Origin: Paracamarosporium sp. OC-R06-R3
Lineage: Eukaryota; Ascomycota; Dothideomycetes; Pleosporales; Didymosphaeriaceae
Reading direction: 5' to 3'
Assembly (NCBI GenBank): GCA_019828545.1
Contig: JACVRA010000361.1
Span: 1-64,000 of the forward strand
DNA: 64,000 bases
The notes beneath the pieces were generated by a model. The model worked only from the letters and a program-made list of their open reading frames with translations, did not search any database and was not told the DNA's origin. This document shows, piece after piece, positions 8,618 through 47,704 of this stretch (position 1 is its first letter; each line of letters starts with the position of its first letter). The position numbers were made by a program, and so were the translations under genes.

Positions 8618-11406
8618 ATGGATTTGTTCCGACGCAAAAGGACCCGCCACGATCCCTCGCGAACCAGCAATAGGCAGATCCACCAGGAAGACTCACGCTT
8701 CGGCGCTACCCAGGTGACGGGCGGCTCCGTCTTCCAGGGCAACTTTGTCGGCCTTACCATCAGTGAGTGCGCTTAAGTTCGACGCTTGCGATGCTAACAG
8801 TGCGTAGATTCGGCAGCCGCGGTCCGGCCCGAGTACGCTGGGCAGTTCTCGCACTCTGCGCTTACGCCCGTCAAGGCCTTCATTCCACGAAGGCGCCTGC
8901 GCCACCGCATCCGGACGCAGCTCTGCCGTCGCGCTGCAGACAGTGCTGAAGGCCCCAAGACGCTCGTTGTGTGGGGATTGGGCGGAGTCGGCAAAACGCA
9001 GCTAGTGCTAGACTACGTGCGACGGCACCGCACCGAATACAGGGCCACGTTCTGGATAGAGGCGGGGCGGAAGGAGTCGCTGGAGCGCGACTTTGTCCAG
9101 TTGTACCAAACGCTATTCGGGCTACGCGCGTCCGCTGAACCGAAGACGATCAGCGCGGAAGACGCTGTGACTAGCGTGAAGAGCTGGTTCTCCGGGCAGC
9201 AGGGCCCGTGGCTGATGGTGTTCGACGGAGCCGACACGATCGACAACAGCGAGGCTAGCGACTTCATCGACCTAAGGCACTTCATCCCGGACGTAGTCTC
9301 TCTGCACGTCATCGTCACGAGCCGGTGCAGCACGGCAAAGGACATGACGCAGCTGGAGGGAGTCCACGTTAGCGAGATGGAAGAAGGGGAGGCTGTGGAA
9401 CTGTTCTACCAGTACTCCCAGCTGCCGCATGACGATAACGATACTGGCACACGGAACGAGATCGAGGCTATCGTAAGGGAGTTGGGGTGTTTGGCGCTGG
9501 CCGTCACACTTGCTGGCACGTACGTGGGGTCGACGCCGCGGCTGCGGACCAATATCAAAGCATACCTCCCCGAATACAGGCGGCGGCGGCGCGAGCTGCT
9601 CAGGCAGAAGCCGGAGAGCTTGGTGCACCAATACAACGAGAGCGTGCTCACAACTTGGGAGACGTCCTACCAGGCTGTTGCCGATCAGTGCCCAGAGGCG
9701 CCAGTACTGATGACGATGATGTCGTTTCTGAGCTTCGACGATATCTTCCTCGCACTATTTGACGTAGGCGGTGATCAGACTGACAGCAGCGACGGAGATG
9801 AAGCTGGCATAGAGTCTACAGAAGATGAGTCTGTAGAGTATGAGTGGACGGATGACGAAGATGAAGTTGATACAGATTGGACACGCATTGTCTCTCCCGA
9901 CCGGACGCTAGACACATACAAGATCGAAGAGTGCTTTACAGTGTTGCAGAAATACTCGCTCGTGCAATGGAAGGAAGACCAGCAGAGCTACGCGATGCAC
10001 AAGCTGGTACATACTTGGGGACACGATAGACTTAGCGAGGAAGAGCATTGGAAGTTCATTCAGGCAACCTTTTGGATTGTTAAAGACGCAGTGAAAGGGT
10101 GTGGGAAAGCGCCAGAAGAAAAGCTCCGGCTGATGCCACACGTGATGGCGAACTTTTCAGCATTGGCCAGTGCAAGCAGTGGTTCAAACAGACTCACGGA
10201 GATTTTGCTTTGCGAATTGGAGAGACTAGGATTATTTGTAAATGAGCTTGGACGGTGGGCAGAAGTACAGGTAATTGGTGGGTTTGTACTCAACGAGAGA
10301 ATCAGGATCCTTGGCGAAGAGCATCTAGACACACTTTGGGCGATGAGTAACCTTGCTATTACGCTCGAAGACCAAGGGAAGCTAGATGAGGCAGCAAAGA
10401 TAAAGCAAGAGGTACTAGAGAAACGGAGGCAGATCGTAGGCGAGGAGCATCTAGATACGATTATAGCGATGAACAGCCTTGCTGTCACGCTCTATAAGCA
10501 AGGGAAGCTAGATGAGGCAGTAAAGATAATGCAGGAGGTATTAGAGAAACGAAAGCAGATCCTAGGCGAGGAGCATCTAGATACGATTATGGCGATGAAT
10601 AACCTTGCTANNNNNNNGCTATTACGCTTGGAGACCAAGGGAAGCTAGACGAGGCAGTAAAGATAATGCAGGAGGTATTAGAGAAACTAAAGCGGATCCT
10701 AGGCGAGGAGCATCCAGATACGATTATGACAATAAATAACCTTGCTGTTACGCTTGGAGACCAAGGGAAGCTAGATGAGGCAGTAAAGATGATGCAGGAG
10801 GTACTAGAGAAACGAAAGCGGATCCTAGGCGAGGAGCATCCAGATACGATTATGGCGATGAATAACCTTGCTATTACGCTTGGAGACCAAGGGAAGCTAG
10901 ATGAGGCAGTAAAGATAGGGCAGGAGGTACTAGAGAAGTGGAGGCAGATCCTAGGCGAGGAGCATCCAGATACGATTACGGCGATGAACAACCTTGCTAT
11001 TACGCTCGAAGAGCAAGGGAAGCTAGATGAAGCACTGAAGATAAAACAGGAAGTACTAGAAGCACGGAAGCGGATCCTAGGCGAGGAGCATCCAGACTTT
11101 AAGGCAACTGCGAAAAGCTTAGCTCGGCTTATCCATCGTCAAAAGTCGCGGGCCCTAGGCGAGGAGCATTCACACACGGTTGCTGATCCGCCCAGAAACC
11201 AAGAGAAGTTAGAGGAAGCGGTGAGAATACAGAAAAAAGTACCAGAGAAGACAAGGCGGGTTCTAGGCGAGGAGTATCCGCACACTGAGACAGCTGCTGA
11301 AGACTTAGCTGTGCTTGTTCATCGCCAAAAGTCGCGCGACCGTGGTATCCCAACATCAACTCGGAAGCGGAGTATATTTAGGAGGCTTCTAACAGGGAAG
11401 TTATGA
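8618..11406 (+). CDS. NB-ARC/TPR NLR with N-terminal amyloid-like motif
   Basis: Exons 8618-8762 and 8808-11406, joined by a 45-bp intron with a GCTAAC branch site; about 914 residues. Exon 1 encodes a short basic leader and then GGSVFQGNFVG at residues 35-45, before any folded domain. The NB-ARC follows: P-loop GLGGVGKT near residue 105, Walker B LMVFDGAD near 184, a TSR sensor, a GCLALAVTLAG stretch and the fungal MHKLVHTWGHDRL winged-helix signature. An acidic insert lies at about 9775-9880. The C terminus is a TPR array of 42-residue kinesin-light-chain-like units, then degenerate units and a basic tail. A run of Ns at 10611-10617 breaks the frame artificially. STAND receptors of this kind sense ligands through the repeats and seed an effector through the N-terminal motif; here the effector would be the neighbouring hydrolase. 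Confidence 0.88.
10313..11110 (+). repeat. Tandem 126-bp TPR-coding units
   Basis: The GGCGA of the GEEH motif recurs at 10313, 10439, 10565, 10702, 10828, 10954 and 11080. Spacing is exactly 126 bp except across the gap. Units are nearly identical at DNA level, a sign of recent amplification or concerted evolution. Shorter, decayed units follow at 11158 and 11266. Confidence 0.92.
10611..10617. other. Assembly gap (7 N) inside the TPR array
   Basis: The bases before and after the Ns both read GCTA. Removing the 7 Ns plus one copy of this 4-base overlap restores both the 126-bp spacing and the reading frame. The gap is therefore a scaffolding artefact, and the true repeat number is uncertain. 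Confidence 0.85.
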
Positions 11407-36653: not shown

Positions 36654-38192
36654 GGTGATGATGATGGTCAATCGGCAATGAGGCTTGGTCGTTGTTGTCA
36701 AAACTGATCTTTGAGGTGAAGGTAGTGTAGGGAAAGAAGGGGGACAAGGCGCGGCCCATTCGTCCCTTTATACCTTGTTAGATGAGACCTTTCCCGCACA
36801 TGCATTCATTTCCCGACCCTAAGACTATTCAGCAATGCCTAGGCGCATAGAAGAAGCCGGTGAGACTTACAAATGCAACACAAGGCGGTGTTTAGATGTA
36901 TCTACCCAATAAGAAGAAGCACGCAAGCACAAGTTCACAGCTTGATGCCTCAATGGAGCAGTTGCTATGGGTTGTGGATACACCAAGCCCTTGGTCATCC
37001 GCCTTATGCACAAAGTGAACTTTTGATGCTTCATATGGAGCCAAGGAACACCAAGATATTTGATCAAGGATATGAATTAAGGGTAAGACGGATTCATGCC
37101 CAGAATCAAGATTGGGTTGATAAGTGAAGAGTAAAAGCTGACAAGTCCATGAATAAGATCTACAGAAGGAGAGTTCCAATTACAAAGGGGATGAAACATG
37201 TCGACGTAAGGATTCTTCTTGTTCAGCGTGATGATCTTAATTAAAAATGTTATTTGGTCTCAATTGTCTAATCGTCTAATGTAGGCTTCTACCTGCTGTA
37301 AGGATAGGAGCGTCAGTAGCCACGTATCTACGAAAAACCATTCGGATTTTGCCTTCAGCCTTGCCACTAACCTTGCCACCTATAACGTGCAGGACCATCA
37401 CCACACTAATTACTTAAGCGTATTTTAGTCCCAACGACTAGCTCACCAATGAAGACCTCAGCTTGGTCATTTCTACGGCCATGCGTAGCCACACCGTGCA
37501 ACCGATTATACTATATGGGTAATATCACTTGCAGGAATGACCTCTTTCCAACAAAATAGCGCCGATCATTTTTCAGCTCGTCTTGTCATGGTAGTATTAG
37601 GCCACCGTGAAGAGCCTCGTGGACCTAATAGCGTCTAGCATAGCAGAGTCTGTCGTATAAGGTACCTAGGCGAAGTTCAACATGTGCCGGATCGAGCGAT
37701 TGCCCAGCCCGTACCAAGAACACCGGTATGTAAGCTCGAACTTCCAAGCACAGTCCTACCCTTACATATATGACATGTTGCTGACTCACGGTTGAGCAAG
37801 CCGCATACGTGACGAAAAAGGAAAGACTTCTTTTCTTTTTGGTTAACAACCTTCAACCTGGAACATCGAGCAACACGCACATATGGTCCACTGTTTGCAT
37901 CCCATTATTCTTCGTGACAAAGCCACAAGTCAATCTTTCATCGATGATAAGTTACTAGGTATATGAGAAGTAGAAACATGATCCAAAACAGACATGATTT
38001 ACATCACGATAAAGCGCGGCGCAATTCCGCACTACGCAGTCTACCACAAACCAAGCTTACCATGAATCCTACACGCCTCACCACAACAAACGCCACCACA
38101 AGACGAAGCCCAAAACCAATGTATAACATATACCTTACCACTCAAACACCAAACCATCCCAAATCCACATACTCCCCCTACAACCTCTCATA

Positions 38193-39068
38193 ATGCCACA
38201 CAAACCCCGCCCCACCCCAACAATAACACCCCTCTCGCCCCCGCCCCCAGGAACAACCAGCATCGAGCGCCCCGGCCCCGAAGCAGTCGCATACCACATT
38301 CCCACCTCTCCACCCTCCCAAGCCGCACACCCAGAGCCCCTGAAAACAACAATCCACGTCCCCACCCACTCGACCTGGACCAGCGGCCTGCACTACCACA
38401 CCACGCACACAGAGTACCTCCGCCTAATCCGCGGCTGCATCTCCGTGCGCCTCGGACCACAAATACATACGCTCTCCGCCTCAGCCGGAGGCGCGATTGA
38501 CCACCACGGGAAAATGGTGAAGCCCGGGCTCGTGGTGGAAGTCCCGCGGTACGCGCGGCACAACTGGGGTCGCGCGCAGCACTATCGCCTCAGGCGCCGC
38601 GTGTGTGGTGGTCGTCAATCTTTCGTGTTTCCGGCGGATTGGAACGACGATGTTGTGGTCGAGGAGTGGACTGCCCCGAGTGATGTGTCGAAGCCGTTGT
38701 TTTTCTGGAATCTGAATGGCGTTGTTACGAGGCCGGGTCCGGCGCCGAAGTGGGTCGTGGAGAGCTGGTGGGTGCCGCTGCAGCTGTTTGTGATATTTTG
38801 GGAATTGGATAATTGGCCTGTGTTTTTCGATATGAGGGGTAGGTTGATGCCTTGGTATGTGTTGGGGTATGAGTTGATGAGTGAATGGGTGGCCAGGAAG
38901 GTAGGGAGAGGTATAGAACATGTGATGACGTGGATGGTACTGTCTACTGTTAGTATTATAGCAAGGGTGGCGGGTGTGAAGGCCGTGGCGGAAGAGAGAA
39001 CACCTGAGGCACTGTGGGAGGCATGGCTCAGGGAGAAAGGAAACGTAGAAATGAAGAAAAAGGACTAG
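38193..39068 (+). CDS. Cupin-fold hypothetical protein
   Basis: An intron-less gene of 291 residues. After a Pro-rich N terminus there is a cupin-like stretch with STWTSGLHYHTTHTEY and LRLIRGCISVRLG, giving the HxH...E spacing of the first cupin box, then VPRYARHNWGR for the second. The C-terminal third is hydrophobic around WWVPLQLFVIFWELDNWPVFFDM. I recognise it as a lineage-specific fungal cupin-like family without known reaction. A ~80-bp internal segment (38637-38718) is duplicated at 39621-39705. Confidence 0.65.
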   Translation: MPHKPRPTPTITPLSPPPPGTTSIERPGPEAVAYHIPTSPPSQAAHPEPLKTTIHVPTHSTWTSGLHYHTTHTEYLRLIRGCISVRLGPQIHTLSASAGGAIDHHGKMVKPGLVVEVPRYARHNWGRAQHYRLRRRVCGGRQSFVFPADWNDDVVVEEWTAPSDVSKPLFFWNLNGVVTRPGPAPKWVVESWWVPLQLFVIFWELDNWPVFFDMRGRLMPWYVLGYELMSEWVARKVGRGIEHVMTWMVLSTVSIIARVAGVKAVAEERTPEALWEAWLREKGNVEMKKKD

Positions 39069-39327
39069 ACTATATGCTTCTGGTAACAGACGGGCATTGT
39101 TATCACAGATGAACTTCAAATACAGTCATAGGGAGGAAATTGGATGAAAGTTGGAAGTGTGAACAAGGTATCATTGCTTTTAGAACAGTAGTCAATTTTT
39201 GACTCTTTTCCAAGACCCAGCAAACCCGCGGTACCAAACAGTATTCGACCGACGCCAAGTGCAGATATGAAACCTATTTATACACGTCCATTGGGACACC
39301 CCGACTCAACACACAGCCCCGAGACGC

Positions 39328-39620
39328 TTACTTCTGGTTCTCGGGACGGAGCGAGCGGACGGCCTTACCGGCGCGCCAGATCTCGAGGTTGTCGATCTCC
39401 GCGAGCTCCTGGTTGTACTTCTCGCGGTAGTCGGGCTGCGAGTTGTACTCAAGAGACCTCTTGGTCTCAGAGCCATTCTCAACAGAGGTGTAGAGGTCGT
39501 CGAAGACGGGCTTCAGGGCATCCTTGAAGCGCTTGCTCCAGTCGATGGCACCACGGCGGGCGGTAGTAGAGCATGCAGCATACATGTAATCCATGCCGTT
39601 AGCGCCAATGAGAGGGCAGA
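39328..39620 (-). pseudogene. Severed 3' end of ILV5
   Basis: Encodes about 93 C-terminal codons of ketol-acid reductoisomerase, from PLIGANGMDYM to RPENQK and a stop, with no 5' part. Its codons look like those of the 5' part of the intact ILV5: by hand count none of 7 Leu codons is TTG and 1 of 8 Arg codons is AGR. It ends like canonical fungal ILV5. The breakpoint lies at the Y-P-L-I-G position. It is probably the original 3' end of the ILV5 gene now found at 45520-46906, displaced by the island in between. Confidence 0.88.
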
Positions 39621-39705
39621 TTGGAAAAACGACGATGTTGTGGTGGAGGAGTGGACTGCGCCGAGCGATGTGTCGAAGCCGTTGTTTTTCTGGAATCTGA
39701 CATAC
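39621..39705 (+). repeat. Duplicated fragment of the cupin gene at the break
   Basis: Matches 38637-38718 of the cupin gene in the same orientation, with three substitutions and a 3-bp A insertion. It abuts the ILV5 fragment directly. It looks like a short templated insertion made during repair of a double-strand break. Confidence 0.85.
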
Positions 39706-39774
39706 CTCTCACCCTTCAGACCGCTGCTAGACCGCCACACCTCTCACCTTTAGAACCCTGGCGCCCCAACTGCC

Positions 39775-39942
39775 TATAAAACTCGCCTCCCGCACCATCT
39801 GAACTTGTCTCTACACCTAATTCTTTTCCTGCGCTCGCGACCGAGAGCTCTGAGCCCACTACAGTAGCATTCCTCTAACACTAACCGTAAGTCACGAAGG
39901 TCTTGCCATTTGGAAAGAGCTGGTCGACTAACATAACTGCAG
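39775..39942 (+). promoter_or_regulatory. TATA box and 5'-UTR intron of the coiled-coil gene
   Basis: TATAAA at 39775-39780 is followed by a CT-rich start region. A canonical intron (GTAAGT at 39887, CTAAC branch, CAG at 39942) ends 27 bp before the ATG. This argues for a real plus-strand gene. Confidence 0.65.
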
Positions 39943-39969
39943 ATCTCTCCCCGAACGCGACCGACCGTT

Positions 39970-41352
39970 ATGGCCCATACTAGTGGAAGCGAGCCTCCAA
40001 CCGGCTCTCGTGATCCTCAAGTCGGCGACAACAATCCCCATCTCTCTTCACAGAATCAAGTTTACTTTCCCGAAACCTTCTCGGCAGAGCAGACTGCCCC
40101 ACAGGCTGGACTTCAAGACGGCCCAGGCTTGCAACCTGCGAACCCACAAGCTTTCGATTTCTTCGCTGGAGCCCAATATGAGCCTGTTTCTGGAGAAACC
40201 GATGACATTTTTGCTCGTTCGCCGGTCATGGATTGGCAAGCCGACCAAGCGGCCTCGGTCGCTAATCTCACGCGCGAACTGGAGACTTTGCGAGAGGAAA
40301 AAGAAAAGGCAATGAAACATGCGACCGATGTTCAGGCGCAGAAAGAAGAATTGCTCGCGCAAAAAAATAATTTGCTCGCAGAGAAGGCGACTTTGGAGAC
40401 AGAGAAGGCGACTTTGCAGACAGAGAACTCGAAAGCACAGAACGCACTCGCCAGTGCAAGAAACGAGATTAAACAACTAAAGGCCACTCGGGATAACAAT
40501 AAAGCTAATGAGGCGAAGATAGCAGATATGTTCAAGGCAATGAAGGAAGTTGCTCAACTCAAGGAAGATAACGCCAAACTCACCGCTCAGCAGACCAAAT
40601 TACAGACTGAAATTAACAGAGCCTCCGGTCCGTTGAGTCTCCTTGGTAGGTTTGCGGACCAGAAACCGTTCGGCATCTCGGAGGGGTCTTCCATGCTCAG
40701 AACTAAGGAGTTAACCGAGCTGTGGTTCCGTCAACTCTGGAGCCGCTCCGTCGCGTACACGCATCTCGCCAGCAATCTGGACTCTGCGATGCAAAAATTC
40801 CACAACAGCACAGCCGGTTCACCTGGAATTAAGCAGGACCCTGCTAAGTCGCAGTCCGGTCAGTTGTTTCCTTCTCGAGCGAGTTCTTCAGCTCCTACCG
40901 TCCAACCAACCAGCTCGCAGATGTCTTCAATGGCATCTTTAGCACCTCCTAAGCAGGAGGCTCCCCAACCTCAGCCTGGTCTCTCTCCGGGTCCGGGTCC
41001 TGCTATGTCTGCAGCCCTTAACATCCAAAAAGATGCCCCAGCAGCATCTTCAGCCCCTACTATGCAGGAAGCTCCCCAAGCTCAACCGACGTCTCGGTCT
41101 CGACCAAACTCTACGTCTCGACCGGTTCATCGGTCTCAAATTGGTTCTCACTATGGTGTCAAAGGAATGCTTGGTCTGCGACAGAATATGTCGATGGTTC
41201 CTCCAGCAGTATCTTCGGTTTCTCCTAACGCCACCGCCTCCCAGAGTTTTAAAGCTCAATCGGCAGCATCGGATATTCCCCCAACCTCCCAACGGCCCAC
41301 CGGTCCGGCTGATGATGATTCGCATACAAAAAACTTAAAGGCACGGCAGTAA
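39970..41352 (+). CDS. Coiled-coil / low-complexity protein, frame 1
   Basis: 460 residues. The N terminus is disordered. Residues ~95-220 form a long coiled coil rich in K, E, A and Q heptads (EKATL repeats). A more ordered block follows around FGISEGSS..LWFRQLWSRSVAYTHLASNLDSAMQ. The tail is rich in Ser, Pro and Gln with repeated PKQEAPQ / MQEAPQ motifs. No family recognised. The frame ends at 41352, but the next frame (41334-42539) continues in the same style without an ATG for 143 codons. The two probably form one protein joined by a -1 frameshift or broken by a 1-base indel. Confidence 0.72.
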   Translation: MAHTSGSEPPTGSRDPQVGDNNPHLSSQNQVYFPETFSAEQTAPQAGLQDGPGLQPANPQAFDFFAGAQYEPVSGETDDIFARSPVMDWQADQAASVANLTRELETLREEKEKAMKHATDVQAQKEELLAQKNNLLAEKATLETEKATLQTENSKAQNALASARNEIKQLKATRDNNKANEAKIADMFKAMKEVAQLKEDNAKLTAQQTKLQTEINRASGPLSLLGRFADQKPFGISEGSSMLRTKELTELWFRQLWSRSVAYTHLASNLDSAMQKFHNSTAGSPGIKQDPAKSQSGQLFPSRASSSAPTVQPTSSQMSSMASLAPPKQEAPQPQPGLSPGPGPAMSAALNIQKDAPAASSAPTMQEAPQAQPTSRSRPNSTSRPVHRSQIGSHYGVKGMLGLRQNMSMVPPAVSSVSPNATASQSFKAQSAASDIPPTSQRPTGPADDDSHTKNLKARQ

Positions 41353-41367
41353 ATACGTTTGCTGTTG
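41328..41367 (+). promoter_or_regulatory. Candidate -1 ribosomal frameshift signal
   Basis: An in-frame slippery heptamer A AAA AAC occupies 41328-41334. After a 9-nt spacer a 10-bp stem (41344-41353 with 41358-41367, including G-U pairs) closes a TACG tetraloop. The shift would lead exactly into the downstream frame. A missing A in the A6 run is the simple alternative. Confidence 0.45.
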
Positions 41368-42539
41368 GTAAGACCTTTACAGGACTCTCGCCAGCCGAGT
41401 ACAGCGAAGGAGAGGCATTGCCATCGACCGAGATACCGGTCACCAGAAGCAATGATACCATTAAAAGAGAGCATTCTTCCACACCAGCCTCGAGTGTGGG
41501 CACGGTTGCTGATCAGAGGCCTTTAAAAAGACTCAAAACGTTCAAATGGCCAATAACTATTGGGGGACGACCAACACCAGCCTCAGTTAAAGATTTCAAT
41601 GGAGATGTTGAAGCGCTACCGCCTTTTCGGTTGACGGATCCAGATGGCCCGCCACGCATTCCTACAGATCCGCTCTCGAACCAAACAAGTGGCTACAAGA
41701 AAGTTGGAGGAAATATTGATTTCACAAACATTGACTCAACCCTGAGAACGGCAAGGCAATATATGAATCATACTGGCGAATACTACACAGAAGGATTACC
41801 AAAGTTGAATCTGTCATCGCCTGGAAAGATTATATGCAACTTTGAAGGTATGGCGGTCCACGTTTGGAACACACCATCTCGGTCGAGGTCGAGAACGTTA
41901 TTCCCCTTTTGTTGGGTCCCACGAGTGTCTAGTCGAGACCTTTTCATTTTCGGTGATAAGCAAATCCGACTGTTGGGGCCTTGTTGGTCACACTTGTCAA
42001 AGTGCGTGGCGCATCACGAGCAACTTCCGGTTATTAGTTTTGACTTAAACACATGTCCACTGGACGGAGTGCCAAGGTCGTCAGGAAATTGCATCATTCA
42101 CGACTTTGCGATGAATCCCGAATACAAAAATAGCTATTGTGTTTTCGACTGGCCGGCGTCGTGGACAACAAAATCAATAAACGGAAAGCCCACCGACACT
42201 GTTCAGCGTGCACAACAAACCGGTCGCTCGGGCTATGAGCCCTTTCCCAGTGATCTCCTGAATAGAGATTCCCTCGATACTCGCCTGCCCGCAGTGCAAA
42301 AAAAGCAGAAATCCATCATGCCCAGCGATGTTACGCCTGCCAGAAGTCCTGAGCAAGGTCTTGCAGGCAGAACCCAACCCTATTATGCAACTGAAGGCTT
42401 CGATGACGGTTTTGATCAATCTTATCCAGACAGTATTCACGATGATGATCGTTCCACTGGGTTTGACCGGGCTCAGTCCATTTCCCACCGCTCCTTGTCT
42501 GCGTATGAAGACGCAAGCGAGGAACTACATTGGGTTTGA
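41334..42539 (+). CDS. Continuation of coiled-coil protein, frame 2
   Basis: An open frame of 401 codons after a -1 shift. The first ATG is at 41763, so the upstream 143 codons would be unusable unless translated from frame 1. It starts with a Lys-rich segment. A region with several Cys and Trp follows (FPFCWVPRVSSRDLFIFGD, LLGPCWSHLSKCVAHHEQ, CVFDWPASW), looking like a folded domain I cannot name, and the tail is acidic. With frame 1 the product would be about 856 residues. It ends 1.1 kb before the convergent nuclease gene. Confidence 0.62.
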   Translation, partial: LKGTAVNTFAVGKTFTGLSPAEYSEGEALPSTEIPVTRSNDTIKREHSSTPASSVGTVADQRPLKRLKTFKWPITIGGRPTPASVKDFNGDVEALPPFRLTDPDGPPRIPTDPLSNQTSGYKKVGGNIDFTNIDSTLRTARQYMNHTGEYYTEGLPKLNLSSPGKIICNFEGMAVHVWNTPSRSRSRTLFPFCWVPRVSSRDLFIFGDKQIRLLGPCWSHLSKCVAHHEQLPVISFDLNTCPLDGVPRSSGNCIIHDFAMNPEYKNSYCVFDWPASWTTKSINGKPTDTVQRAQQTGRSGYEPFPSDLLNRDSLDTRLPAVQKKQKSIMPSDVTPARSPEQGLAGRTQPYYATEGFDDGFDQSYPDSIHDDDRSTGFDRAQSISHRSLSAYEDASEELHWV

Positions 42540-43677
42540 CCGGGCAAAAGGTTAGGATGGGTATAGCTCCTGAAAGTCGAGATGATGATCTACGCGTATC
42601 TCGACGGTAGCAAAGTGGAAAAGTATGGCTCTAAGAGCAGCGAGGAGTCGATTCTGTTCTCCAATTTCTGTCTTTCTCGACCGATAGGCCGGTCTGGCCA
42701 CTACTTTTGCTTTACTTGCCTTCATTATTTGCTTTAAGTACGTCCGGTCAAAATTTTGGCAGTTCATTTTTAGTCATTCTCATGATTCTGAAACGGAGGG
42801 CTGAAAGGCTTCGATGGCCATTTGCTTAGTATTCAGTCGGTCTCCTGCATTTCGGAGATATGCAACAGGACCGGATTTCAAGTTTTGGGTATGGTTTGCA
42901 TAGTCTCGGGACATCATAGATAGTTCAATCAACCAATTTTAGTCTGTTAGAAGTATAAGACAAAATGGTGATTATACAAAAGTAGGTTGTTGAGTGGGTA
43001 TCAGCAGGTATATCTACCACAGGCCGTAATGTTCCGAAACACTGCTAGCCTAGGAACAGGATGTTGGTCCCGCGACGGCCATTAAGGGACATCTTGCATT
43101 TAACGCCTACAGGTAGGTTGATGATAGATAAGAGGAGGAAAATGAGGAAGATCGCCAGCGGCGACAGCAATAGGTGCGGTGTCGACAGGCTAGTTGTCAA
43201 CGGCTTAGTTTAGTTAACCGACTGGCCGGTCGACGATTGTCAACGGGCCGATAGATGAGGTACAGCAGTAGGTTAGCCGGCGAGGCAGTGCTGGTGAAAC
43301 GGCTAGGCGGCAGCAACATTGTAGCTATTTCACGTAAAGGAAAACAATGACATGACGGTTTTCGAAATCGATGATGTGTATTCTGCGACAGAAGCTATAT
43401 ACTACCTAGATAACAGACGTTTCCCGGACCATCGGGAATAGCTGAGATGCACAACAAGCATAAGCACATAAATATGTACAGAATGTGTCAGTATCGGTCC
43501 ACTAATCCATATCCTTCATCTCAAGTTTCGCGTCATCGTTGGCGTCGGCCGTAGCGGCTTGTCGAAGTTCTCGAATCCGGTCTTGTATGACGGCCGTGCG
43601 TTATTTATTCATAAGGCTGCGAGTTAAATCTACCAGCGATAACCCACGCCCATTTCGCCAGTCAATTCCACCATGAC
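42540..43677. other. Intergenic, convergent 3' ends inside the island
   Basis: 1.1 kb without a supported gene. Short GGCCGG/CGGC-rich stretches near 43180-43330; otherwise unremarkable. Confidence 0.55.
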
Positions 43678-45348
43678 TCATGGACGACGTCGATTAGGGA
43701 GCTCGCCATTGTGCCGACCAACGTATGCATTGCAAGCAGCGCATAGCCAGCATCTTCGCACTTTGCTCCATCGCCACACTCCGGACGTGGTCAGAGTCCC
43801 GCACTGCTCGTTCTCGCAGACTTCGGGGCAAGGGTAGTCCTGGTTTGCTGTCTTCAAGTTCCTGTGCGGCCGCATCTCGCCGTTATGTTTCCTCGCGTAC
43901 TTATCGCAGGGCGCGCAAAGCCATATTCCACGCGCCTTGTCAAATACCCAGATTCCAGACGTGGTCTGACTGCCACAAGCTTCGTTCTCGCAGTAACCAG
44001 GGGCAGGATGCTCTTTCCTCGCTGCGGCAGTCGCACTCGGAACGCGTAAGGCGTCATTGTGTACGTACGCGTAGCCAGCGCATGTAGCACAGGTAAATAT
44101 TTGAAAGGTTAAATTAAACCTCCATGAATCATTGGTGCTCTTAGTGCTACCACAGTAAGGATTCTCGCAGTATCCCGGACACTCGCGCTGGTTTCTTAAC
44201 TCGCGTCGAACTGCCATTGCCTCGACGTTGGCAGGCGGACAGCGCAGTTTGTTCGAATTGAGCCCTGTCGAATATCGGGCACATGCGCTGCACAAGTAGA
44301 TATTCATGGCTTTGGACCAATGCCATTGAGCGCTCTCCTGAACGGCGCATAGCTCATTTTCGCACCAGCCAGGTGCTGGTGGGCGGGAGGCAAGGTCGGT
44401 GTCGCGGGCGTGTCGGTCGGCGAGCTCTTCGCCAGTCTGGAAGCGTCCGTAGGTGGAATAAAACCTTGCGCACCGCTTACAGTTGTACTCGTTGCTTGAA
44501 AGAGGGTCGGGGTGCCACATTGAGGAGTCGGTAGATCCGCATCTGTAGCAGGTGTAGCGGTGTCTATGACGTTCTCGGTAGGCCATAGCATTCTCTGCAA
44601 CGACCTGCAGCTGGGCTGCACGGCGAATTTCGAACTCTTGGACGTCGTCCGAAGGAGCATCATACCCCTCGCGAAGTACATCAGTGCAGTTCGCTGATAT
44701 GATGGGCTGCTTGAATTTCAGTATGCCGTACGCATCAAGTGACTCGAATTGGCTGTTCGCTGCGACATGTGCATTCAGACCCAGGAGATGGCGGGTGATC
44801 AGTTCCCTAAACCGAGTCCACGCTTTATCGACAAGGGTGTCTTTGCTGGTTGCGAGGACGTATGGCTTCATGGGAGCTCCGTCGTTGTCGAGAAGCCTGT
44901 ATATCAGCTTGGTAGGTTCACCAGCACGATACTTCGGATCGAGATGCCGGTCAGTACGGCCTTTCATCCCGTGCAAGGCATTGCAGCTCTCTCCAGCGTA
45001 AGCGGGGGATAGCATCGGTATGTCGTCTTCTTTGTAAAGTGGCAGACCGAAGACAAGGTACGAGCCAACCGAAGCACCGTCGGGGATGCAGCAGGGATAA
45101 TCTGTGAGTGCTGCTAAATCGCCAGTGTCGATTCCGCCCTTTCTTCCAAATGCAGCTTGTACCAGCTGCGGCATTCCTTTGAAGTATCGTAAGGCTAACT
45201 CGTCGGCAGTATTGTCATCAATGAGTTGGACGATGTCCGAATGGATAGATAGTCGTTGATCCTGAACGTGTGCATGCAAGACACGACAAACTTCAGTCAC
45301 CGCAGAAAGCGTCCGCGACCTACGTCGAAGACTTGTCGAGGCACCCAT
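43678..45348 (-). CDS. GIY-YIG nuclease fused to five GATA-like zinc fingers
   Basis: A single exon of 556 residues; the ATG at 45348 is the first in the frame. Residues ~85-195 match a GIY-YIG nuclease: VGSY (95-97), AYAGES with the second Tyr at 117, Asn122, Arg131 in KGRTDRH with His135, and the metal-binding Glu182 in RELITRHLLGLN. Five fingers follow at about 267-293, 329-356, 394-423, 453-481 and 511-539. Each reads C-x2/4-C, a Trp, LC-x2-C, then often Y..(H)NGE.R as in GATA factors. The combination suggests a site-specific endonuclease whose finger array reads DNA. It lies 171 bp behind the ILV5 stop, on the same strand. Homing activity is inferred from context. Confidence 0.75.
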   Translation of the reverse strand: MGASTSLRRRSRTLSAVTEVCRVLHAHVQDQRLSIHSDIVQLIDDNTADELALRYFKGMPQLVQAAFGRKGGIDTGDLAALTDYPCCIPDGASVGSYLVFGLPLYKEDDIPMLSPAYAGESCNALHGMKGRTDRHLDPKYRAGEPTKLIYRLLDNDGAPMKPYVLATSKDTLVDKAWTRFRELITRHLLGLNAHVAANSQFESLDAYGILKFKQPIISANCTDVLREGYDAPSDDVQEFEIRRAAQLQVVAENAMAYRERHRHRYTCYRCGSTDSSMWHPDPLSSNEYNCKRCARFYSTYGRFQTGEELADRHARDTDLASRPPAPGWCENELCAVQESAQWHWSKAMNIYLCSACARYSTGLNSNKLRCPPANVEAMAVRRELRNQRECPGYCENPYCGSTKSTNDSWRFNLTFQIFTCATCAGYAYVHNDALRVPSATAAARKEHPAPGYCENEACGSQTTSGIWVFDKARGIWLCAPCDKYARKHNGEMRPHRNLKTANQDYPCPEVCENEQCGTLTTSGVWRWSKVRRCWLCAACNAYVGRHNGELPNRRRP

Positions 45349-45519
45349 CCTGAGTGGAACGCATGTGTTGACGAAGGATGGTAGACGACGGAAAGGACAG
45401 GTTGCATTCTTTGTTGTAAGCGACTTTAAAGTTGTACCTTCCTCCAATTTTTTTGCTCAGCACCTTCCCAGATCAGTGCAATTCCACCCTTCCTCCCCTT
45501 CCTTCTCAGATTACAGTGC

Positions 45520-45830
45520 TCAATTCTTTCGAGCCTCCGGCCTCAAAGACCGGACTGCCTTACCAGCTCTCCAGATCTCCAAGCTTCTGATTTCTTCCAT
45601 TTCCGCCGCAAATTTCTCGCGGTAGTCCTTTTGAGAAGCGTACTCCAATGTCTTGTGCGTCTCGGTGCCATCCCTGACAGAGGTGTACAAGTCATTGAAA
45701 ATCGGCTTCAAGGCGTCTTTGAACTTGGGAGTCCAGTCAATGGCGCCTCTCCTGGCAGTCGTACTGCATGCCTCAAACATGTAATCAAGTCCGTTGTTTC
45801 CAATCAACGGATAGAGGGACTGTGTAGCCT
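45520..45830 (-). other. Foreign or recoded replacement 3' end of ILV5
   Basis: The codon-usage boundary falls between GTC GAG GAG and GCT ACA CAG, just before the YPLIG codons where the stranded fragment begins. The protein is about three quarters identical to that fragment by eye, while synonymous sites are extensively different. Confidence 0.72.
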
Positions 45831-46906
45831 CCTCGACGGTCTCGTTGAAAGCCTCAGAAGGAGAGTGGCCACGCTCACGGAGAACCTCGTACTGGGCGAG
45901 GAACATGCCGTGGATACCACCCATCAGGCAGCCACGCTCGCCGTAGAGGTCGGAGTAAACCTCCTTCTCGAAGGTGGTCTCGTAGAGGTAGCCGGAGCCG
46001 ACGGCAACACCGAGGGCGATAGCCTTCTCCTGGGCCTTGCCGGTGACGTCCTGGTAGACGGCGATGGAGGAGTTGATACCGCGGCCCTCACGGAAGAGGG
46101 TGCGGACGGTACGGCCGGAGCCCTTGGGGGCGACGAGGATGACGTCCATGTCCTTGGGGACATCGACCTTGGTGAGGTCCTTGAAGACGGGGGAGAAACC
46201 GTGGGAGAAGTAGAGGGTCTAGCAATGTCAGCAGAGCCTGATGGTGGGGAACGAGTATGCTCACCTTCTCCTTGGTGAGGAGGGGCTTGATGGCGGGCCA
46301 AGTCTCCGACTGGGCAGCATCGGAGAGCAGGTTCATGACGATGGTACCCTTGTTGATGGCCTCGTCGATATCGAAGAGGTTCTTGCCGGGGACCCAGCCA
46401 TCCTGCTCAGCCTCCTTCCATGAGGTACCGTTCTTCCGTACACCAACGATGACGTTGAGGCCGTTGTCACGGAGGTTAAGACCCTGGCCGTGGCCCTGCG
46501 AGCCGTAGCCGATGAGGGCGAGGGTGTCGTTCTTGAAGTACTCCTGGTTTGATTGTTAGCTCAAAGTTCCATTGAGAATGTAGTTGATGCCGTTGAGGCA
46601 TGTGCTGACTTACAAGAAGCTTCTCCTTGGGCCAGTCCTCGCGCTCTGTAACCGACGTCAGCAATCAATTGGATCAGCTAAAAAGCATCAAAACTCACCG
46701 TAGACAGTCTCCTTGGTGCCGGCGAAGTCAATCGTCTTGACACCACGCACCTGCTGGAACGAGGTGCTGACAGCAGCCTTGGGGGCAGCTGCCACGCCAG
46801 CGCGAGCAGCGTTGAGCGCAGAGACGAAGGTACGCCTCTGCACAGCAGGGACGGCCAATTGGCGCGCAATCTGGCGGGAAGCACGAGCAGCAGGTCTTGA
46901 GGCCAT
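45520..46906 (-). CDS. ILV5: Ketol-acid reductoisomerase, mitochondrial
   Basis: Exons 46906-46699, 46645-46614, 46543-46265 and 46218-45520 encode 405 residues. It catalyses the isomeroreduction step of valine, leucine and isoleucine synthesis with NADPH and Mg2+. A basic, Ala/Arg-rich presequence targets mitochondria. The Rossmann signature is LIGYGSQGHGQGLNLRDNG. The knotted C-terminal domain carries GRG.NSS, the acidic metal-binding segment around ETTFEKEVYSDLYGERGCL, and ACSTTARRGAIDW. The last ~95 codons (45520 to about 45830) differ sharply from the rest: 6 of 7 Leu are TTG and 6 of 9 Arg are AGR, against none of either upstream in this exon. The ending RPEARKN is also atypical. This part looks like a replacement 3' end. 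Confidence 0.95.
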
Positions 46907-47704
46907 TGTGAATGTGTGAGGGGGTATCTTGGGGAGTTTGAGCGGAGAGGGTGTTGGACGGTTTTTAAAGCTGGGCTGGAGCTGCGTCTGGGGTCGTTCG
47001 GATTTTCGAGCTTGAACGGCCGAACATCGGCGGTGGGCCTGTGGCCAGTCACAGATGACGCTTCGGGGAGGCATGCGCATCTCCGAACCAAGCGAAAAGT
47101 GGGGCCCAACATCAGACTGACAGAACGGCGTTCCAGACAGCGAGAAACGGAGTACATGAATGCGGTAAACACTGCATCGTCTAGTCTAGTAGATAGTCGA
47201 GATGCGGTAGTGCGTGTGGTGGACGATGGCACGAGATCCTGACTCACCCATTGCCTATTGTCTACTGAACTTCGCTCCCCGGCCGATCTACGCTGAACCT
47301 CAAATCACTATCAGCGGTGAAGATCCACAAAACAAGAGTCACTGACGATACGCAGGTGTACCCAATAAACCTTTGATGAAATTCACAAATTTGCTGCGAT
47401 TTCTCTATGAAGAACCATCGCTATGCTTTAAGGCAAGATCCGACCGTATGGATAGATCCGAAGAGAGATAAACCCTGTAAACCAACGCCTCGCTCCTGAA
47501 TACACCATAACTAAATGCTCGCTCATGATTATCATCTCTGTCATGCAACCGTCTTTTGGGGTGCGTGCATCTCTCAAACTTTTGGCCAAAGCCGTGATTG
47601 CAAGAGTTTCACACACTGTGACTCAGCCTTCCACAACCAACGATCTTATGAATGGCTGCCCAAACTGTATTCCGTCGCGGTGTATAAAGCGCCGCAAAGT
47701 GCCC
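46907..47704. other. Intergenic: ILV5 promoter, UBC12 3' flank
   Basis: No gene recognised in 0.8 kb. Confidence 0.6.

Follow-up and report, generated by a model that had tools for sequence, protein, structure and literature searches.

We analysed a 64,000-bp stretch of DNA from Paracamarosporium sp. OC-R06-R3 (GCA_019828545.1, contig JACVRA010000361.1, positions 1 to 64,000 of the forward strand; hereafter the window), in which the gene for ketol-acid reductoisomerase (KARI), ILV5, is probably occupied by a homing element. ILV5 lies on the minus strand at 46906-45520, and its four exons give a contiguous protein of 405 amino acids without an in-frame insertion. Reading leftward from 46906, ILV5 is followed by a nuclease-like gene, a convergent second gene on the plus strand, a short filler, and a severed ILV5 3' end. 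The locus holds a chimeric ILV5 with a foreign-looking new end, a native severed end that starts at the YPLIG codons, and the nuclease-like gene behind the new end. Its main features are as follows.

46906-46699, 46645-46614, 46543-46265 and 46218-45520, minus strand: the four exons of ILV5, from the spliced translation
46219..46906, minus strand: ILV5 exons 1 to 3 with their introns, the host-derived 5' part (spliced translation; 5' tree)
45814..46218, minus strand: host-derived portion of ILV5 exon 4, to about the YPLIG break, with codon use like that of the 5' part and drifting close to the end
45520..45813, minus strand: current (new) ILV5 3' end, from about Y309/P310 to the stop codon (divergent codon use; identity to Pleosporales)
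43678..45348, minus strand: nuclease-like gene, 556 amino acids, with a GIY-YIG-type active-site pattern and five GATA-like fingers (motifs; P0001)
39328..39615, minus strand: old, native ILV5 3' end, now severed, with 95 codons and the stop codon, grouping with Pleosporales

Homology between the two ILV5 ends begins sharply at the proline codon of YPLIG, and from P310 onward 69 of 95 aligned residues are identical. The severed end retains an open reading frame throughout, without a frameshift. An earlier note, made by a model from the letters of this DNA, had described an intact ILV5 beside a severed 3' fragment at 39328-39620. The spliced translation of 405 amino acids and the fragment itself bear this out, with the correction that 39620 lies a few bases too far, homology stopping at 39615. 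Across the whole genome (43.09 Mb in 337 contigs), PF01450, the KARI C-terminal domain, matched only twice, at the current and severed ends. This profile search found no second ILV5 paralogue in the genome, with which the stranded fragment, according to the note, would have had to group for its reading to be refuted.

Codon use sets the two ends apart. TTG encodes 6 of 7 leucines in the current end, whereas in the 5' part it encodes 1 of 25 and in the severed end none of 7 (Fisher p = 5e-5, current end versus 5' part), and AGR codons encode 6 of 9 arginines in the current end, compared with 2 of 18 and 1 of 8, respectively (p = 0.006 for the same contrast). On a score similar to the codon adaptation index and trained on the 5' part, the last 96 codons of the current end reached 0.28, below the minimum of 0.48 among 214 equal-length leave-out windows of the 5' part, and the severed end reached 0.69. 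These values agree with the earlier note that the last ~95 codons of ILV5 differ from the gene's own 5' part and that the stranded fragment matches that part. The shift in codon use falls at or near the same codon as the break. Because the nuclease gene (0.29) and a neighbouring cupin-like gene (0.25) also score low, a low value shows that a sequence departs from a strongly biased gene, and not by itself that it is foreign. Low codon bias in a presumably highly expressed gene would suit a recent history within a mobile element.

Comparison with relatives indicated which of the two ends is native. We fetched 193 ILV5 proteins (P0002-P0194), aligned the 170 of at least 350 amino acids, and counted the 134 with both parts complete. 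The severed end was the closer one for 121 of these and the current end for 8 (P0002, P0003, P0009, P0010, P0031, P0035, P0074, and P0085), with 5 ties. As 120 of the 193 relatives had been chosen for similarity to the current end, this count is biased against the severed-end result; complete relatives recruited solely by a search with the 5' part were nearer the severed end in 58 of 58 cases. Five of the eight current-end-like relatives are named rows, none of which comes from a genus that we take to belong to Pleosporales. Ten named rows from genera of Pleosporales were 86.3-95.8% identical to the severed end versus 69.5-74.7% to the current end. Relatives already carrying the current type of end would have refuted the reading as an element, and the ten named Pleosporales carry the severed type. 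Among the matches listed, the best identity to the current end in the protein collection was 86-87%. The ILV5 5' part was nearest to P0016 and Byssothecium circinans (both 96.4%), followed among the named rows by Corynespora and Melanomma (94.4%), level with the lichen-associated row P0124.

Trees were built from 64 rows picked by name or as near relatives, of which 61 were used; the 3'-part tree comprised 63 rows. With the 5' part, the ILV5 of the window paired with P0016 (support 97/85) within a Pleosporales fork (94/97). In the 3'-part tree, the severed end grouped with Pleosporales, at a support of 93 in the Shimodaira-Hasegawa-like approximate likelihood ratio test (SH-aLRT), and the current end fell outside Pleosporales, in a set that contained Dothideomycete and Hypocreales-type rows, with SH-aLRT values of 87 and 94 that do not reach 95. 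The best trees of the two parts conflict, yet an approximately unbiased (AU) test gave p = 0.306 with the current end held in Pleosporales. Separate trees, which had been suggested as a check, thus placed the severed end and the 5' part with Pleosporales and the current end outside, a contrast that the AU test did not make significant.

The current end looks like the end of a working enzyme and not like a decayed copy, since it keeps 42 of 44 near-invariant columns despite its divergence; 22 of its 26 differences from the severed end are found in some relative. Between the two ends, the NG86 method gave a dN of 0.28 and no finite dS, and 33 of the 66 codons for shared residues differ.

The nuclease-like gene is intact, lies on the same strand as ILV5, and starts 171 bp past the ILV5 stop codon. 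Within residues 95-192 of its product, the elements G-x-Y, Y-x-G, R-x3-H, E, and N follow one another (Y97, Y117, R131, H135, E182, and N192). For comparison, the active site of the GIY-YIG enzyme R.Eco29kI consists of Y49, Y76, R104, H108, E142, and N154 (PMC1952068). Five finger units with the pattern C-x(2/4)-C ... C-x2-C follow from residues 267, 329, 394, 453, and 511, with a tally of seven CxxC and four Cx4C motifs. In Pfam, the protein gave a sub-threshold GATA finger alone (E = 0.036), with no LAGLIDADG or intein match at E values up to 10. Sequence searches of the PDB gave weak GATA-finger matches (best E = 0.097) and chance matches only; NCBIfam gave none for this protein and, for its closest relative, P0001, two weak helicase matches far below the cut-off.

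P0001 has 426 amino acids, is 42% identical to the nuclease-like protein (E = 1e-117), and keeps all six active-site residues. It emerged from a search of 5.8 billion proteins in which the best 8000 word-sharing candidates were scored, and no further relative was found among those candidates. None was confirmed among viral contigs (82 pattern matches) or prokaryote genome contigs (37 pattern matches), and none was found in plasmids or phages. Among 20,000 shuffled versions of each, a regular expression for the active-site pattern matched one for the domain and 12 for the whole protein, counts that are optimistic as the expression was written after the protein had been inspected. P0001 was its one match among the 194 collected proteins, and the nuclease gene its one match among 139 open stretches of the window. 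Elsewhere in the genome, the expression matched the GIY-YIG protein of the mitochondrial cob intron and not the Slx1-like protein. The contig that carries this cob gene with its intron-type GIY-YIG endonuclease (C300, locus L005; 27.9 kb) looks mitochondrial. The domain is probably GIY-YIG, an assignment at the level of motifs because Pfam is silent on it and structure models were unusable. Of the zinc-finger GIY-YIG nuclease gene that the earlier note had announced, the intact gene and its five fingers therefore stand, and the GIY-YIG part is read from the active-site pattern.

This arrangement closely matches the model for WHO elements, which occur at FBA1 in Torulaspora and Lachancea (Coughlan et al. 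2020, PMC7282813). In the model of that report, the WHO nuclease cuts a sensitive allele, and repair from the occupied chromosome swaps the 3' end, inserts the nuclease gene, and strands the old end. WHO proteins have three to five CxxC motifs, the nearest yeast kin of which are atypical GATA fingers. As in WHO elements, the element here sits 3' of an important metabolic gene whose 3' end it replaces, the old 3' end remains as a remnant past a nuclease gene that is transcribed on its own, and the nuclease domain is followed by CxxC zinc fingers likened to the GATA type. Host genes of WHO elements also have 5' and 3' parts of different descent; here the best trees of the two parts conflict, with an AU p of 0.306. 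In contrast, the target is ILV5 instead of (mostly) FBA1, the host is a filamentous Pleosporales-like fungus instead of a budding yeast, the nuclease shows a GIY-YIG-like pattern instead of being a LAGLIDADG/intein-type enzyme, and a single element takes the place of tandem clusters. The filler and the second gene are also unlike WHO elements. With no LAGLIDADG match and no cluster, the element falls outside the WHO family, although it would work in the same way.

We therefore favor, at a probability of about 0.7, a model in which a WHO-like homing element, with a nuclease and a host gene unrelated to those of yeast WHO elements, occupies ILV5. The unit of the element would be a cut-resistant ILV5 3' end together with a gene for a site-specific nuclease, and the displaced native 3' end downstream would serve as the second homology arm. 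At a sensitive ILV5 allele, the nuclease would cut close to the YPLIG codons, and repair would copy the occupied chromosome and thereby join the 5' part of the recipient gene to the 3' end of the element. The new end would both keep the enzyme working and destroy the cut site, and the recipient's old 3' end would be pushed to the far side of the nuclease gene. Cleavage of ILV5, the resistance of the new end to it, and homing are inferences, as is a GIY-YIG fold. The earlier note had read the same arrangement as the product expected of an element that cuts ILV5 and brings its own 3' end, and our comparison with the WHO model supports this reading of the layout, homing itself being the inferred step.

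The severed ILV5 end adjoins a filler that was absent from the earlier note.

39616..39700, plus strand: filler, an 85-bp copy of 38634-38715 abutting the severed ILV5 end
38193..39068, plus strand: neighbouring gene, 291 amino acids, cupin-like by eye only, without a Pfam match; of the type from which the filler derives

The source at 38634-38715 lies inside the cupin-like gene, about 1 kb from the filler. Relative to the host gene, the filler has four substitutions, all synonymous in the frame of the gene, and one extra in-frame AAA codon. Because a dead copy evolving neutrally would seldom show only synonymous and in-frame differences, the filler likely came from a diverged functional allele. 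We read it as a product of break repair in another lineage that may have been carried in with the element. Less likely, given five differences in all, the host cupin-like gene changed under constraint and the filler stayed unchanged. A filler adjoining the severed end is expected of double-strand-break repair.

P0016, the nearest relative of the 5' part, shares with the current end the residues at positions 5, 12, 27, and 28 counted from the break, which none of the 11 other Pleosporales rows (the ten named ones and P0125) has. Of the 26 positions where the two ends differ, those up to position 47 comprise 6 at which P0016 is like the current end, 3 at which it is like the severed end, and 2 at which it is like neither; of those beyond, 11 are severed-like and 4 neither. 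This mosaic near the break resembles the conversion tracts of WHO6 survivors, which run for 106-306 bp from the cut toward the stop codon (PMC7282813). The pattern could be a trace of the same attack, or it could reflect convergence, since F12, T27, and P28 are found in Hypocreales-type rows as well.

Several observations weigh against a homing element. The filler implies that one side was joined at least once by copying or end joining and not by clean recombination, and the second island gene is without a place in the homing model. The nuclease gene has a single match in the genome, itself, with no paralogue or cluster there. Pfam PF01541 did not match it, and the three hits of this profile in the genome all lie elsewhere; single-sequence hhalign, a weak test, found no match between the domain and the cob-intron GIY-YIG or Slx1-like proteins of the genome. 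AlphaFold models of the whole protein and of the domain were unusable, with mean predicted local distance difference test (pLDDT) values of 35.4 and 32.7. The tree constrained to place the current end with Pleosporales was not rejected (p-AU 0.306), its log-likelihood being 11.87 lower over only 95 columns. The relatives were compared at the protein level, and the DNA is that of one strain.

Single copy number of the nuclease gene, filler on one side, and a second gene without an obvious homing role would all follow if a break had once been repaired with foreign fungal DNA carrying an ILV5 3' end and further genes, the nuclease gene being a passenger without homing. We regard such a one-off horizontal capture as unlikely. 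The gene directly behind the foreign end resembles a nuclease with DNA-binding fingers, and codon use of such low bias as in the new end would be odd for a normal ILV5. Furthermore, a severed end starting sharply at one codon, together with a new end that is diverged but constrained, is what homing predicts and would be luck under capture. The AU test (p = 0.306) allows a Pleosporalean origin of the new end, as would be needed if ILV5 had duplicated its own 3' end locally, the used copy diverging fast and unrelated genes being inserted between the copies. This is improbable, given the absence of a finite NG86 dS and the 33 of 66 differing codons for shared residues, and given that the severed, unconstrained copy is still open, has host codon use, and is up to 96% identical to genes of other genera. 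A single local duplication does not fit because the severing is recent and the divergence very old.

We give very little credence to an assembly error or contamination that joined two ILV5 genes. Although the draft genome consists of 337 contigs, the whole region lies in one contig of 207,661 bases, the chimeric frame is continuous through exon 4, no further copy of either half was found in the genome, and filler from the neighbouring gene sits inside the island. It seems equally improbable that the element is domesticated, with homing lost and the nuclease kept for a function in the cell, as happened when HO arose from WHO; a single copy with an intact frame would suit this, but the old end is still open and host-like, and for that reason the insertion looks recent.

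Other known systems share single features with the ILV5 element. Like the HO endonuclease, which acts on a specific chromosomal locus (PMC7282813), the predicted nuclease has C-terminal CxxC fingers; HO, however, derives from an intein, is unlinked to its target, and serves mating-type switching. GIY-YIG homing endonucleases of mitochondrial introns have the same order of active-site residues, but they lie in organellar introns, and here we found a nuclear-type gene with GATA-like fingers and no intron RNA in Rfam. VDE-type inteins also home into an essential nuclear gene (same report), whereas ILV5 here is uninterrupted and there is no protein splicing. Neither a homing group I intron nor an intein fits: Rfam gave no match to a group I intron RNA at the gathering score in 38000-47500, and the 405 amino acids of ILV5 are uninterrupted. 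A tRNA scan gave no matches.

Judged by titles and the starts of abstracts, the full-text matches listed in our literature search contained no homing element at ILV5 and no GIY-YIG counterpart of WHO, and an earlier report is possible. If our model is correct, the locus would be a second, apparently unrelated case of this kind, with a different nuclease acting on a different essential gene in a filamentous fungus, and swapping the ends of essential genes would be a repeatedly evolved strategy of selfish nuclease genes. We lean, though only slightly, toward the idea that homing by gene-end swapping evolved at least twice in fungi, with a GIY-YIG nuclease with GATA-like fingers driving through ILV5 independently of WHO and HO, and with this locus perhaps hit repeatedly. 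The locus preserves the presumed cut-sensitive and cut-resistant ends of one gene about 6 kb apart.

The other gene of the island, which was likewise absent from the earlier note, is convergent to the nuclease-like gene.

39970..42539, plus strand: second island gene, about 837 amino acids, with a coiled coil in its N-terminal half and a proposed 56-bp intron at 41349-41404

Pfam gave weak, mostly coiled-coil-type matches to its product, and no paralogue or other match to it was found in the genome; it is possibly cargo of the element. An 18-bp direct repeat (94% identity) lies at its end, at 42455-42472 and 42528-42545. In the non-coding part of the island, a 68-bp stretch at 43042-43109 is repeated at 88% identity on another contig (L012, C66:6993-7061). 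Outside the island, a run of XXX, likely an assembly gap in a repeat, stands near the end of an open reading frame at 8969-10648 that is NLR-like and continues into TPR-like repeats.

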